Virus record (IMG/VR): IMGVR_UViG_3300032829_000022
Location: 1 to 40,870 of that record
Length of the DNA stretch: 40,870 nucleotides
DNA from: a virus
Strand: one strand, 5' to 3'
Every line of letters begins with the position of its first letter. Within the stretch, counting starts at the first letter, position 1. This document shows positions 30,182-38,770 of the stretch, piece by piece. A program made the translations under genes and the position numbers. The notes beneath the pieces are model-generated. The model was not told the DNA's origin. It worked only from the letters and a program-made list of their open reading frames with translations, and searched no databases.

Positions 30182-30282
30182 CAACCACGGAGGGACAGAC
30201 CATGATGACGAGTATCACGGCATACGTAGACGGTTTCGGCGACTTGCTGACAGGCGATACGGCGGAACGCATTAGAGCAGCG
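30182..30282 (+). repeat. 101-bp direct repeat, copy 1
   Basis: Perfectly repeated at 30599-30699. It includes the ribosome site GGAGGGACAGACC and the first 27 codons of the gene at 30202. After one mismatch, six more bases match. Confidence 0.95.
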
Positions 30283-30534
30283 TCGGCCGCGCGCGCGCTC
30301 GCTGAGATGGTCTCGGAGCTGACCTGTCTCCAGCAGACCCTCCAGAACGCCACCTCAGCCGTGGTAGCTCTACAGGTCGCAGTAGACAAGGAGGCGATAC
30401 GGGTGCAGACGCGTGTACTTCGCCGGGCGCTGGACGAGTTAGAGGACCACGCGGACGACGCACAGGATCTGCTGAGCGAGATCGAGCACGCCGCAGGTCT
30501 CGTGCGAGAGGACGGCAGCCGGATCGACGAATAG
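30202..30534 (+). CDS. Early helical protein sharing a duplicated N-terminus
   Basis: A 110-residue protein with tandem ATGs after GGAGGG. Residues 1-27 (MMTSITAYVDGFGDLLTGDT...) are identical to those of the gene at 30619. The rest is a long amphipathic helix/coiled coil (LAEMVSELTCLQQTLQNATS...VLRRALDELEDHADDAQDLL). It is the first gene of the early operon and is followed by intergenic RNA element A. The shared 5' end suggests a common expression or localisation module. Function is unknown. Confidence 0.6.
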   Translation: MMTSITAYVDGFGDLLTGDTAERIRAASAARALAEMVSELTCLQQTLQNATSAVVALQVAVDKEAIRVQTRVLRRALDELEDHADDAQDLLSEIEHAAGLVREDGSRIDE

Positions 30535-30598: not shown

Positions 30599-30699
30599 CA
30601 ACCACGGAGGGACAGACCATGATGACGAGTATCACGGCATACGTAGACGGTTTCGGCGACTTGCTGACAGGCGATACGGCGGAACGCATTAGAGCAGCG
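30599..30699 (+). repeat. 101-bp direct repeat, copy 2
   Basis: Identical to 30182-30282, offset by 417 bp. It supplies the ribosome site and first 27 codons of the gene at 30619. Confidence 0.95.
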
Positions 30700-30840
30700 A
30701 CGGCCGACGAGAAAGCTGCCAGTCACGACGCTGGATCCACTGGCATGATCGAGACTTCCGTGGCCACCAAGACTCTTCACCACCAATGCCCTAAGTGGTG
30801 CCGACTGATGGATGACTATCGCCCGGGATGGGACGACTAG
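30619..30840 (+). CDS. Small early protein with duplicated N-terminus
   Basis: A 73-residue protein. The first 27 residues match the gene at 30202 exactly. The C-terminal part is different and ends in a Cys/His/Trp-rich segment (LHHQCPKWCRLMDDYRPGWDD). The copied 5' end joined to a new 3' end looks like modular gene assembly. The stop is followed by RNA element B. Function is unknown. Confidence 0.55.
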   Translation: MMTSITAYVDGFGDLLTGDTAERIRAATADEKAASHDAGSTGMIETSVATKTLHHQCPKWCRLMDDYRPGWDD

Positions 30841-32054: not shown

Positions 32055-32390
32055 ATGATTGCCACACTCCTATTTCTCACCCTATCCGCGACTCCCACCC
32101 AATGCGGCGAGGTTCAGATCGCCCAAGCGAACGCCGACATCAAGACTGCCCTAACCATGCTCGACTCGCCCAACGTCGACGCTAGGGTGACTGGGTCGCT
32201 CCTGCTCATTGCTGCGCAGGAATCGCTAGCAACTGCGATCGCCTCCTGCACTCCAACCCCTATTGGCAACGTGACTCCGTTCGCGTCCGATGATACAAGC
32301 GCTGACCCATTCGACCTAGACGATAGCGACGGTGAAGCTGAGATGCTTTACCGCGCTATCGTGGACCAATTCAACGAGGACCTACCATGA
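32055..32390 (+). CDS. Exported small protein
   Basis: A 111-residue protein started at the ATG at 32055. An N-terminal hydrophobic stretch (MIATLLFLTLSATPTQCGEV) is signal-like, with possible cleavage near residue 17. The mature part is helical and then acidic (DDTSADPFDLDDSDGEAEM). The stop overlaps the next ATG (32387-32390). Together with 31547 and 32387 it forms an envelope-directed group. Function is unknown. Confidence 0.55.
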   Translation: MIATLLFLTLSATPTQCGEVQIAQANADIKTALTMLDSPNVDARVTGSLLLIAAQESLATAIASCTPTPIGNVTPFASDDTSADPFDLDDSDGEAEMLYRAIVDQFNEDLP

Positions 32391-32518
32391 CCCGCTTCCG
32401 CCGCTGGCTATCCCAATCGGCCGACATTGCTTGCTGGACAGTCGCTCTGCTGATCGCGCTCGCGCTAAACGGTATCCTGCTCATCTACAACCATGCTTAT
32501 CCGGTTGACGACCACTAG
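32387..32518 (+). CDS. Single-TM small membrane protein altered by cassette 1
   Basis: A 43-residue protein with a basic N-terminus and one membrane helix (CWTVALLIALALNGILLIY). Its last codons (NHAYPVDDH) are supplied by the left terminal repeat of cassette 1. Without the cassette the frame would continue ...LLIYN-HR and stop at TGA 33014-33016, giving 37 residues. The insertion therefore changed only the C-terminal tail. It is coupled to the upstream gene by ATGA. Confidence 0.6.
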   Translation: MTRFRRWLSQSADIACWTVALLIALALNGILLIYNHAYPVDDH

Positions 32519-32534
32519 CGAGACGAGGTGATTT

Positions 32535-32870
32535 GTGGGCAACATGACGAAATGGCGCATGTTAGCTAGCAACGAAGGACCAGAGTATGGACCCGGCACC
32601 GGACACCTCAATCCCAAAAACAAGCCGTGGCAAAGGAGAGAGAATGGCGTTTGGGAGCGGTTCGGATGGACCGTGCAAGAGACGTTTCCAGAGACGACTC
32701 TTCCATGGACAGTAGCAAACCACGGGCAACTATGTAGACGTAGTCATGGGATATTCATGGGTTATCGCCGGTACAAGACGGCCGCCGCAGCGATGATGTC
32801 CGTGACGGGCGACCGAACAGTTTTCGCAACCTCACCTTGGCATTCTCCTCAACAACGGAGTGGGACATGA
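32535..32870 (+). CDS. Cassette 1 cargo protein
   Basis: A 111-residue protein from a GTG with AGGTGA about 4 bases upstream (an ATG at 32544 is the alternative). It is Trp/Arg/Gly-rich (WQRRENGVWERFGWTVQETFPETTLPW, CRRSHGIFMGYRRYKTAAAAMM), suggesting a compact beta-alpha fold. It is the main cargo between the inverted ends and shares the operon's orientation. No family is recognised. An eight-codon ORF begins inside its stop (ATGA). Confidence 0.5.
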   Translation: MGNMTKWRMLASNEGPEYGPGTGHLNPKNKPWQRRENGVWERFGWTVQETFPETTLPWTVANHGQLCRRSHGIFMGYRRYKTAAAAMMSVTGDRTVFATSPWHSPQQRSGT

Positions 32871-32889
32871 AAGCAAAGGACAGCGCGCG

Positions 32890-32976
32890 ATGAACGCCAT
32901 CGACAAGGCTGTCGAGCGAGCCGCCGCCGAGGACAAGGACTGGCGTCGGTGGAATCTTCTGGCAGTTGTAGATTGA
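32890..32976 (+). CDS. Second small ORF in cassette 1
   Basis: The ATG at 32890, after AAAGGAC, opens a 28-residue frame (MNAIDKAVERAAAEDKDWRR...). It ends one base before the right terminal repeat. It is helical with a Trp-rich end. Tight fit to the cassette border supports it, but it is very short. Confidence 0.35.
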   Translation: MNAIDKAVERAAAEDKDWRRWNLLAVVD

Positions 32977-33019
32977 TGGTCGTCAACCGGATAGGCATGT
33001 CTACAACCATAGGTGACCC

Positions 33020-33208: not shown

Positions 33209-33231
33209 CACCAATGGAGGAAGAACAATTG

Positions 33232-33588
33232 CATGCTTATCCGGTTGACACACTCCAGTTGAACGATAGGAGAACTGTATGCCAATAACAAATCTCACAC
33301 TGACAGACAAAGATATAGCCACCCTTCGAGGCTGCCCGTTTTGCGGCAGTTTTGATTTGGAGCTGAACAATACTCACACGGCCGCCTATTGGATTTCGTG
33401 CAACTCGTGCGAGTCCGAAGGGATGGACGTGAGAGTGAGTGGAAAGTGCTTCTCGGGAGGATACAGGTCGGAGAGAATCCCTAGGAAACGTCACGAGTTG
33501 GCCAAAAAGAGTGCCATCGAACTTTGGAACAGGCGGGCCACATGATGACGTGCATGTGTGGCCATGATGCTGAAACCGGATAAGCATG
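33232..33588 (+). mobile_element. TIR-bounded cassette 2 (357 bp)
   Basis: Left end CATGCTTATCCGGTTGAC (33232-33249), right end GAAACCGGATAAGCATG (33572-33588), 15 terminal bases perfectly inverted. GAACAATTG flanks both sides (33223-33231, 33589-33597). The cargo is the Lar-like gene. Removal restores a 20-codon ORF coupled to the next gene. Confidence 0.75.
33279..33545 (+). CDS. Lar-like zinc-finger protein, cassette 2 cargo
   Basis: An 88-residue protein with AGGAG upstream. Its pattern matches Lar-type restriction alleviation proteins: CPFCGS (19-24), strands, YWISCNSCESEG (CNSC at 41-44), and a closing helix with AIELWNRR. Family members bind zinc, and the founding member from the Rac prophage modulates type I restriction. 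A restriction-countering role would suit a mobile cargo gene, but activity cannot be read from the sequence. Confidence 0.7.
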   Translation: MPITNLTLTDKDIATLRGCPFCGSFDLELNNTHTAAYWISCNSCESEGMDVRVSGKCFSGGYRSERIPRKRHELAKKSAIELWNRRAT

Positions 33589-33638
33589 GAACAATTGCAG
33601 CTAGAAGTGAGAGTCCAAGAAATGCCGGAGGAAAAGTC

Positions 33639-34253
33639 ATGACCAACTACGCAAACAAGTGGCGATGCTCGTGCGGTGACGCGGCAACTCATCAGGATTC
33701 CTTACAGGCTGGGACGTCGGAGTCGTCCAGCCTACCGCCCGCCGACGAGCTGAAGCTGATGAGATTCGACCACCTCTATCGGCTGAACAAGAATGAAATC
33801 TCTGAGAAGGTTATTGCGCCAAATGCTCCAATGTTTCTTTACTGGGACACGGCCAGATCGGCCGCCCTCAATGACATCTCCGATGCCATCATAATCGAGC
33901 GCGCGAAGATGCAGGAAAAACTCGCCTCACTTGAGCGGACGTGTGCAAACTGGGAGAAAGCCGCAGGAGAGGCCATGCGCCAGAATTTCGCACGCTGGGA
34001 GATGATCGACAAAATGCAAAAGCGCCTCGCCGAAGCCGCCATCAAGCTGATGGCGACCGAGGAAGGAAAAGCCAAAGCAGAGATGCGCGTGCTAGAGCTG
34101 GAGGGCAAGCTGACCAAGGCGCAGGAGCCGCTGACGGCCCAGGAGCTGCTTGAAATTCTAAACGCGTGGCTCGCGCGAAACCAGCTCTGCGCGAATTTCC
34201 TCGAATACGGCTCCATGACCGCCGAAGCCCAGCGAAAGAAGGCAATGCAATGA
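33639..34253 (+). CDS. Coiled-coil early protein sharing a C-terminal module
   Basis: A 204-residue protein starting MTNYANKWRCSCGDAA at the ATG that overlaps the TGA of the restored small ORF. After a Cys/His start and a globular part comes a long coiled coil. It includes a 113-bp-coded block (about residues 128-165, KRLAEAAIKLMATEEGKAKA...) also present in the gene at 34505, and ends AEAQRKKAMQ. The shared coil may let the two proteins assemble together. Function is unknown. Confidence 0.55.
   Translation: MTNYANKWRCSCGDAATHQDSLQAGTSESSSLPPADELKLMRFDHLYRLNKNEISEKVIAPNAPMFLYWDTARSAALNDISDAIIIERAKMQEKLASLERTCANWEKAAGEAMRQNFARWEMIDKMQKRLAEAAIKLMATEEGKAKAEMRVLELEGKLTKAQEPLTAQELLEILNAWLARNQLCANFLEYGSMTAEAQRKKAMQ
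34020..34132 (+). repeat. 113-bp direct repeat, copy 1
   Basis: Identical to 35069-35181 (offset 1049). It codes the coiled-coil segment RLAEAAIKLMATEEG...EGKLTKAQEP in the gene at 33639, in the same frame as in the second gene. Confidence 0.95.
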
Positions 34254-34468
34254 AAGGCTACATGAGAATCCATGGCGCTCTGGTGAAGACCGAGCCTCTA
34301 CGTATTGAGACCGCCAGAGACCACCGCTGCGGAACATGCGCCTATGTTAGGCCATCGGGCACCACTGGACTCGTCAATTGTTCCTGTCCACTCCCGTACT
34401 TCCTGGCAGTCGCGCCATCTGTCAATCTGAATCCAAATGATGGCCGCGACTGCCCGGCGTGGAAGTAA
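34250..34468 (+). CDS. Small Cys-rich protein
   Basis: A 72-residue protein from the ATG at 34250 (ATGA overlap with the previous stop). CGTC, then NCSC and a final DC suggest a zinc site (HRCGTCAYVRP...GLVNCSCPLP...GRDCPAWK). This Cys layout is common in small phage proteins. Function is unknown. Confidence 0.6.
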   Translation: MKGYMRIHGALVKTEPLRIETARDHRCGTCAYVRPSGTTGLVNCSCPLPYFLAVAPSVNLNPNDGRDCPAWK

Positions 34469-34504: not shown

Positions 34505-35308
34505 ATGAGCGACGGAATGAGCAACTGCCACCATATTGGGCAATTGATGTCGGCGGTACGAGCCGCCTCAAGAAAACTCCAAGACACGATCAAAGAAGCC
34601 CAAAAAGGGACGCGCGGACTGCGGGTGTCGGGAGATGAAATACTGGAGACCATCGATGAGGGGCTTGGGGGGATTGGCTACAAAGTGACGGCAAAGGAGC
34701 CGAAGCTGAGCGAGCGCGAACGTGGACGGCACCGCCTGAAAGATGTGTTTTTCCGAGGCATCGGCACGTGGGAGGACGTCTACGACGAGCACCTGAAAAA
34801 CTTCGTGCGCAAGTGGCTGGGAGAAAGCCGAACGCTCACCAAGGACGCCGACCGCCACGGCGCCGGGAACTGTGGAAATTCGGAGCGCAGTTCTATTCCC
34901 GTATCTACACCTTCGCAAATCGGACCAGCACCACCCATACAAGGGGACTGGTCAACACTTACCGTCGGAGATAGCGTTTCAGTATCCAGCCCACAGCTCG
35001 CCGCCGCCATCGCAGACGAGCGCGCGAAGATGCAGACCAAGCTCGCCGAGGTGGAGGATAAGTACCGCAAGCGCCTCGCCGAAGCCGCCATCAAGCTGAT
35101 GGCGACCGAGGAAGGAAAAGCCAAAGCAGAGATGCGCGTGCTAGAGCTGGAGGGCAAGCTGACCAAGGCGCAGGAGCCGCTAACTGAGGCCCAGATTAGC
35201 GATATCTACCACGCATGGCTACTTCCGCAGCCAGTAGAAGCTATACATGTTGGGCAAAAACAACTTATTCGCTTGGCCGCCGAAGCCCAGCGGAAGAAGG
35301 CACTCTGA
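34505..35308 (+). CDS. Coiled-coil early protein, paralogous C-terminus
   Basis: A 267-residue protein with GGAAG upstream. The N-terminal 125 residues (helical start, RGRHRLKDVFFRGIGTWEDVYDEHLK) are unlike the gene at 33639. From ERAKMQTKLAEVEDKYRKRLAEA the two are closely similar, including a perfectly repeated 113-bp stretch and the AEAQRKKA end. This is a domain-swapped paralogue. Function is unknown. Confidence 0.55.
   Translation: MSDGMSNCHHIGQLMSAVRAASRKLQDTIKEAQKGTRGLRVSGDEILETIDEGLGGIGYKVTAKEPKLSERERGRHRLKDVFFRGIGTWEDVYDEHLKNFVRKWLGESRTLTKDADRHGAGNCGNSERSSIPVSTPSQIGPAPPIQGDWSTLTVGDSVSVSSPQLAAAIADERAKMQTKLAEVEDKYRKRLAEAAIKLMATEEGKAKAEMRVLELEGKLTKAQEPLTEAQISDIYHAWLLPQPVEAIHVGQKQLIRLAAEAQRKKAL
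35069..35181 (+). repeat. 113-bp direct repeat, copy 2
   Basis: Identical to 34020-34132. It is preceded by a shorter shared stretch GAGCGCGCGAAGATGCAG, showing that similarity extends beyond the perfect block. Confidence 0.95.
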
Positions 35309-35592
35309 TGGCCGCCCTTACCCGTACCCGCACTGGTGCCATCCTGTGCCAGCCCCACATCAGAACCGGAGCGCCAATCTACCACACTCCAGGCTGCGAG
35401 GCATGCGATGCCGCCCGTGCACGTGGAATCGTCCGCCCAGATGCGCCGGCAGACACCAAGGAAAGCAAGCTACACAACAACCGTGTCAGTGGCTTCGGCT
35501 ACGGTCGATACCCTCGTATCGAAATCAAGGCAACCGCACGCCAATTCAGCAAAGAAGAAATCGCCGCACTAAACGCAGCCAGGAGCAAGTGA
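35308..35592 (+). CDS. Small basic early protein
   Basis: A 94-residue protein whose ATG overlaps the previous stop (TGATG). It has a GCEACDAARARG motif (CxxC) and a basic, Gly/Tyr-rich segment (VSGFGYGRYPRIEIKATARQFSKEEIAALNAARSK). The basic charge and CxxC suggest nucleic-acid binding. No family is recognised. Confidence 0.55.
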   Translation: MAALTRTRTGAILCQPHIRTGAPIYHTPGCEACDAARARGIVRPDAPADTKESKLHNNRVSGFGYGRYPRIEIKATARQFSKEEIAALNAARSK

Positions 35593-38240: not shown

Positions 38241-38437
38241 GCACAACAACAACGGTCTGGGTCTATGCGAAGGATGAGGTAGAAGCAATACGCAACGCAA
38301 ATGGCGAGGACTTCTACGAACCCTGGGACGATCGGCAAGCAGCGATCAATGATGCAAATCGGTTCCCGGATTGCAAGGATGCTGACGACATTCTTTTTCG
38401 TGTCGTCAGTACTGTGGCTGTCTTCCAAGAGGAATAG
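38237..38437 (+). CDS. Small acidic protein before cassette 3
   Basis: A 66-residue protein (MSTTTTVWVYAKDEVEAIRN...), with a beta strand followed by helix, then a beta strand (ADDILFRVVSTVAVF). It may have a small ferredoxin-like fold. Its stop (TAG) lies within the left direct repeat of cassette 3, so the insertion left it intact. Function is unknown. Confidence 0.55.
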   Translation: MSTTTTVWVYAKDEVEAIRNANGEDFYEPWDDRQAAINDANRFPDCKDADDILFRVVSTVAVFQEE

Positions 38438-38439
38438 AC

Positions 38440-38761
38440 CATGCTTATCCGGTTCACATACACCACTAAATCAGTAGGAGAACAAAATGGACAGTGAAGG
38501 AAGATTCTACGCCGCGCACCCGGAGGTACGGGAAGCGCTTGAAGCAATGCTGCTCGATAAGTCCGAAAAGGTGAGGGACTCAAAAGAAGCGCCTGCCGAA
38601 GTCATTGAAGTATCTGGAATAATGGCGTCGAGGCTGGCGGAAAGGAATCGCGCATTTCGACGAGTCTACTTCGCAGAACGTCGGCGTGGAGCGAGCGAAG
38701 AGCTAGCCTTTGCAGCGGCAGAAGGTCGCCTGCCCTAATGGGCGTCAACCGGATAGGCATG
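38440..38761 (+). mobile_element. TIR-bounded cassette 3 (322 bp)
   Basis: Left end CATGCTTATCCGGTTCAC (38440-38457) and right end GTCAACCGGATAGGCATG (38744-38761), inverted with two mismatches. GAATAGAC flanks both sides (38432-38439, 38762-38769), and the identity extends to 13 bp including ATG. It lies between a stop codon and the next start codon, leaving both neighbours complete. One cargo gene, no transposase. Confidence 0.75.
38487..38738 (+). CDS. Cassette 3 cargo protein
   Basis: An 83-residue helical protein with TAGGAGA upstream (MDSEGRFYAAHPEVREALEAMLLDKSEKV...). The C-terminal helix is strongly basic/aromatic (LAERNRAFRRVYFAERRRGASEELAFAAAEG). It ends five bases before the right terminal repeat, so gene and cassette borders nearly coincide. 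No family is recognised. Confidence 0.55.
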   Translation: MDSEGRFYAAHPEVREALEAMLLDKSEKVRDSKEAPAEVIEVSGIMASRLAERNRAFRRVYFAERRRGASEELAFAAAEGRLP

Positions 38762-38770
38762 GAATAGACC

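Follow-up and report, generated by a model that had tools for sequence, protein, structure and literature searches.

A 357-bp element carrying a Lar-like gene lies among the recombination and replication genes of a phage (IMG/VR record IMGVR_UViG_3300032829_000022; the 40,870-nucleotide stretch analyzed, positions 1 to 40,870 of that record, is called the window). By PHROGs, the neighborhood encodes exonuclease VIII-like, replication-initiation, and DnaC-like proteins. The element is bounded by CATGCTTATCCGGTTGAC on the left and AACCGGATAAGCATG on the right, and two more elements with such ends, other cargo, and 8-bp rather than 9-bp direct repeats lie in the window. Two further repeats were seen, each at 99% identity: a 116-nt stretch at 34020-34135 and 35069-35184, inside two genes (33639-34253 and 34505-35308), suggesting a recent partial duplication or exchange, and a 108-nt direct repeat at 30182-30289 and 30599-30706, upstream of the cassette region.

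Features of the three cassettes (window coordinates)
Feature	Position	Strand	Description
Cassette 1	32492-32999	+	508 bp; 8-bp duplication TCTACAAC at 32484-32491 and 33000-33007; changes only the last codons of the frame that starts at 32387
Likely cargo frame of cassette 1	32535-32870	+	GTG start, 111 aa; no match in Pfam or PHROGs; not called by the in-house gene caller
5' part of possible 20-codon frame	33214-33231	+	unproven gene
Left target duplication, cassette 2	33223-33231	.	9 bp, GAACAATTG
Cassette 2	33232-33588	+	357 bp; transposase-less IS1595-type mobile insertion cassette
Left terminal inverted repeat	33232-33249	+	CATGCTTATCCGGTTGAC
Likely ribosome-binding site	33268-33272	+	AGGAG, in the leader
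Lar-like cargo gene	33279-33545	+	88 aa; not called by the in-house gene caller
Right terminal inverted repeat	33574-33588	-	last three bases read ATG on the + strand
Remainder of possible 20-codon frame	33586-33642	+	open in phase from the ATG at the end of the cassette; its stop overlaps the next start at 33639
Right target duplication, cassette 2	33589-33597	.	9 bp, GAACAATTG
Cassette 3	38440-38761	+	322 bp; 8-bp duplication GAATAGAC at 38432-38439 and 38762-38769; between the stop of one gene and the start of the next
Cargo gene of cassette 3	38487-38738	+	83 aa; no Pfam match

The cassette and its insertion site

The preliminary description had proposed that this cassette interrupts a small open reading frame and that joining the flanks after removal of one repeat copy restores 20 codons whose stop overlaps the next start; this observation was confirmed. 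Removing one copy of GAACAATTG and the DNA between the copies gives an ATG...TGA frame (MEEEQLQLEVRVQEMPEEKS, then stop) whose TGA overlaps the ATG at 33639. The 9-mer alone is unremarkable (10 occurrences in the window with one mismatch allowed, 7.0 expected), and a third exact copy, on the other strand at 34375-34383, is unrelated to the element. What makes the duplication real is the pair of inverted ends immediately inside it: six matches to CATGCYTATCCGGTT were found in the window, all exact, against 1.55 expected with three mismatches allowed.

Whether the 20-codon frame is a gene was not established, although this reading is compatible with the insertion itself. The frame joins exactly across the duplicated target, and first-order resampling of local sequence gave such a frame in 1.6% (ATG) or 4.1% (ATG/GTG/TTG) of 64-nt gaps; however, no strong ribosome-binding site lies just upstream, and the frame starting at 33214 has a weak coding score (3.1) in the occupied state. 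The absence of the split frame from every related genome had been named beforehand as grounds for rejection, but no fair test of this was made, because no syntenic relative of the phage was found. Megablast of 24,871 bases against 50,697 phage records returned nothing, and IMG/VR searches with the downstream gene (no hits), a replication protein (three relatives at 33 to 36% identity), and the exonuclease VIII-like protein (one at 31%) gave no match of the neighboring window proteins around the insertion site. A degenerate pattern for EEEQLQLE, part of the small frame, gave 21 IMG/VR hits, which were in other contexts. We consider it doubtful that the frame is a real small gene whose disruption matters, for instance as a leader of the downstream gene.

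In the occupied state, the left part of the frame reads MEEEQLHAYPVDTLQLNDRRTVCQ before its stop and runs past the Lar start, whereas the ATG that ends the cassette could restart the right part in phase (MEQLQLEVRVQEMPEEKS, then stop). Together with the positions of cassettes 1 and 3, this makes the three insertions look mild, an effect that was not tested, and the damage to the small frame may likewise be mild.

Failure of the cargo to resemble Lar in a profile search had also been set out in advance as a reason to reject the finding. The 88-aa protein matched Pfam PF14354 (38.6 bits; cut-off, 28.6; E = 1.3e-9), with the match reaching the end of the profile, and phrog_599 (E = 3.3e-7). It is therefore Lar-family by two profile libraries, although relief of type I restriction was not assayed. 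A search for Lar relatives in IMG/VR gave one hit (43% over 26 residues), which was not pursued, and a PDB search gave one weak hit (E = 0.03) to an unrelated protein; no structure was predicted.

Related elements, transposases, and mobility

The 18-base end motif hit 113 stretches in IMG/VR and at least 119 in GTDB genomes. Titles of the latter include Myxococcales, Verrucomicrobia, Desulfobacterales, Betaproteobacteria, Acidobacteria, Chloroflexi, and Planctomycetota; most are MAGs, so misbinning is possible. Pairing ends gave 248 pairs, 133 with a 7- to 10-bp repeat, of which 119 were exact 8-mers. Of 172 nearest left/right pairs, 115 had an exact 8-bp direct repeat, against 0 of 5,160 shifted comparisons, and 57 had none. 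This first set held 119 distinct repeat-bearing elements (77 viral, 42 bacterial). A second set, fetched with other end patterns, gave at least 37 new distinct elements, 36 of them without transposase, for a total of at least 114 distinct elements with target repeats from IMG/VR loci, 88 without transposase. Elements were counted as distinct by sequence, so near-copies within one contig count separately.

Full-length elements with these ends carry a transposase, mostly 310 to 370 aa. The CATGC ends first suggested IS4/IS231, but the transposase profiles showed IS1595: two transposases that were scanned matched PF12762 (E = 9.9e-29 and 4.7e-34) and PF12760 above cut-off. By tblastn, 25 of the 77 viral elements of the first set (1,567 to 2,636 bp) hold such a transposase and 52 (213 to 1,516 bp) do not; among bacterial elements, 6 hold one and 36 (83 to 453 bp) do not. 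No PF12762 match was found in the window, and 34 of the 41 viral records with cassettes that were searched (window included) have none, although many viral records may be fragments, which makes this absence weak evidence. Of 8 bacterial genomes with the ends, 7 have PF12762 matches. One Myxococcales MAG (DBS2-1.bin68; fetched locus L121 and others) holds 101 end motifs at up to one mismatch (48 forward, 53 reverse), several pairs of which bound elements of 131 bp. In isolated phages (GenBank), one transposase query found only two distant hits (27% identity), in unannotated fecal records, of which one was examined; one composed end-plus-leader query found no match over more than 44% of its length in phages or 51% in plasmids.

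No empty site was found for cassette 2, and its repeat is 9 bp, not the usual 8. However, a 506-bp cassette in two fetched loci (L016 and L030) is absent from a third (L106), whose flanks match at 99% over about 700 bp and hold one copy of the target, ATCCAAAC; the occupied site reads ATCCAAAT on the left and ATCCAAAC on the right, one base apart. Two 287-bp copies, 99% identical, lie at different targets in one contig (L048, L109), and one 2,636-bp transposase-bearing element is 99.96% identical in two contigs at different targets (L053, L114). At L093 (7632-8915), a methyltransferase cassette lies between two halves of an IS1595 transposase match (record G040, 33575-33838 and 35104-35316), so one element seems to have landed in another.

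Orientation, architecture, and cargo

Cargo orientation was first examined with longest ORFs, which gave a weaker signal (60 of 94 flanking genes in the same direction; 18 of 25 where flanks agreed), and then with an in-house codon-usage gene caller on occupied sites (24 of 24 where flanks agreed, but 20 cassettes, cassette 2 among them, had no cargo called). Genes were next called on the joined empty site, so that element frames could not interfere. Of 45 first-set cassettes, the main frame ran with the recipient genes in 35, against them in 5, and was undecided in 5 (binomial P = 1.4e-6), and where both neighbors agreed it was 15 of 15. Seven of the 52 were left out (five hand-listed without a convincing or separate frame, two with too little flank), and cargo strand was set by hand for three of the 45, including cassette 2. 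Transposase-bearing elements ran 14 with, 9 against, and 1 undecided, with 1 of 25 left out (P = 0.40; Fisher P = 0.026 between the groups). The second set, analyzed automatically throughout, gave 28 with, 2 against, and 2 undecided; 4 of 36 had too little flank, and L279 and L293 look like one insertion in related phages. Together, 63 cassettes ran with the recipient genes, 7 against, and 7 were undecided. The bias fits selection for expression with the recipient genes; promoters were not examined, and the stronger figures rest on the in-house caller rather than a standard one.

Viral transposase-less elements have a median length of 505 bp (n = 52), and 37 of 52 hold a frame longer than at least 95% of 50 base shuffles; some hold two frames. 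The bacterial ones are mostly short (median, 164 bp; n = 36), and only 10 of 36 pass the same test. One 117-kb viral contig (IMGVR_UViG_3300050119_000104; loci L105, L088, and L098) carries 26 end motifs at up to one mismatch, many similar, MITE-like 235- to 256-bp copies without a convincing gene, and one IS1595 transposase match. These short forms would favor a decayed autonomous IS1595 element or MITE in which the open frame is incidental and the Lar match a passenger remnant without function. The lengths and frames of the viral elements, the Lar match extending to the profile end, the preceding ribosome-binding site, and the orientation of the main frames speak against this reading, which we regard as very unlikely.

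Sixteen window-type cassettes share a leader with a ribosome-binding site (mean pairwise identity beyond the ends, 62%, against 36% in the first 48 coding bases), but they were grouped by eye for similar leaders, so this figure is partly selection. Other cassettes show a different leader and right-end module, which seems to lend a common C-terminal tail (TQDVGLCV or a one-letter variant) to otherwise unrelated cargo proteins, as in L294, L309, and L339. How new cargo is captured was not determined. Passenger frames accompany the transposase in a number of viral elements, mostly on its strand, and in L009 (1267-2339) a transposase frame continues in phase into what looks by eye like an HNH endonuclease domain, which was not scanned.

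Pfam scans covered the main proteins of 42 of the 52 first-set cassettes and found, over cut-off, N6_N4_Mtase in 4, MethyltransfD12 in 1, Lar in 1, and DUF1281_C in 1, with nothing in 35. Ten of the 36 second-set proteins, picked by eye as recognizable, gave one each of RNA_ligase, NADAR, and DUF1281_C; overall, 42 of 52 scanned proteins have no family over cut-off. A PHROGs search of 47 first-set proteins added three nucleoside deoxyribosyltransferases and one PAPS reductase among 25 of 29 families, and nearly all of 25 of the 78 matching PADLOC models are methyltransferases. Compared with 150 of 169 listed neighboring genes, methyltransferases were only mildly enriched (phrog_67, 4 of 47 against 2 of 150, P = 0.03; phrog_498, 4 of 47 against 3 of 150, P = 0.06). 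The suggestion in the preliminary description that cassettes distribute antidefense functions is thus suggestive only.

Interpretation and comparison with known systems

The interpretation in the preliminary description was partly supported: this is an inserted cassette with a duplicated target and Lar-family cargo, but that the small frame is a gene was not established, and the carrier had not been identified as IS1595-type. With high confidence, we interpret the feature as a nonautonomous transposable element (a mobile insertion cassette) of IS1595 type that carries one gene. The finding is wider than first described, this cassette being one of many. In this view, an IS1595-type transposase supplied in trans by a host copy, a coinfecting phage, or a prophage recognizes the CATGC[T/C]TATCCGGTT ends and joins the cassette to a staggered cut, duplicating 8 to 9 bp of target; the cargo, with its own ribosome-binding site, would be transcribed with the recipient genes when read in their direction, and insertions that do so would be the ones kept. 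Our data show the ends, the target duplications, the absence of a transposase from this record, its presence in full-length elements with the same ends, an empty site for one other cassette, and the orientation bias, whereas mobilization in trans (transposition was not observed, and the empty site and the copies at different targets for other cassettes are only indirect evidence), read-through expression, and any antirestriction benefit are inferred.

A broader reading, which we judge about as likely as not, is that phages of many environments share a transposon-driven cassette economy, in which promoterless accessory genes with a ribosome-binding leader and IS1595-type ends are shuttled between phage operons by transposases supplied in trans and are kept where they read with the operon. 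This would be a phage counterpart of integron cassettes, spreading accessory genes such as DNA methyltransferases, Lar, and NADAR. How single accessory genes enter densely packed phage genomes is a long-standing question; cassettes with defined ends, target duplications, and a known transposase family give a directly testable mechanism, suggesting how phages may pick up extra genes one at a time, and the ends serve as a search handle that pulls unknown accessory genes, some perhaps antidefense, out of viral sequence data.

In favor of integron-like gene cassettes inserted by a site-specific recombinase, these are short units around one gene with an upstream ribosome-binding site, three of them in one genome. 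Integron cassettes leave no target duplications, however, whereas these units are flanked by different 8- to 9-bp duplications and bounded by inverted ends, and full-length versions carry a DDE transposase; although attC folds and integrases were not searched for, we consider this origin highly unlikely. Phage morons are also single accessory genes between phage genes but are usually described with their own promoter and terminator, and the units here are bounded by transposon ends. The closest known counterparts of the cargo are Lar of the Rac prophage and Pfam PF14354, whose profile it matches above cut-off, but E. coli Lar was not compared directly; PMC3874165 covers restriction alleviation and lambda Ral, with no whole-word match to Lar.

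IS1595-family insertion sequences, including transporter ISs with passenger genes (Siguier et al. 2009, cited in PMC3129680), have 8-bp target duplications, as do cassettes 1 and 3, and the ends here are shared with elements whose transposase has the IS1595 zinc ribbon and ISXO2-like DDE domain; ends of named family members in ISfinder were not compared. The window cassettes lack the transposase and sit in a phage, and are read as derivatives rather than as autonomous or transporter ISs. In a limited literature search, no paper was found that, by title and abstract opening, treats IS1595-type cassettes as gene carriers in phages; PMC9145550 mentions IS1595 only for bacterial hosts, and PMC2266710 mentions passenger genes in IS4-family elements. 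The carrier is of a known type, and its use in phages as a gene vehicle that reads with the recipient genes, at this scale, appears new in this limited search. Mobile insertion cassettes such as MIC231 of Bacillus cereus likewise have IS-type inverted ends with a passenger gene and no transposase, and ISsaga (PMC3129680), which describes MICs, MITEs, and transporter ISs, says that some such structures can be activated by a cognate transposase. MIC231 is tied to IS231; here, the family is IS1595, the carriers are phages, similar leaders precede different cargo, and cargo direction follows the recipient genes.
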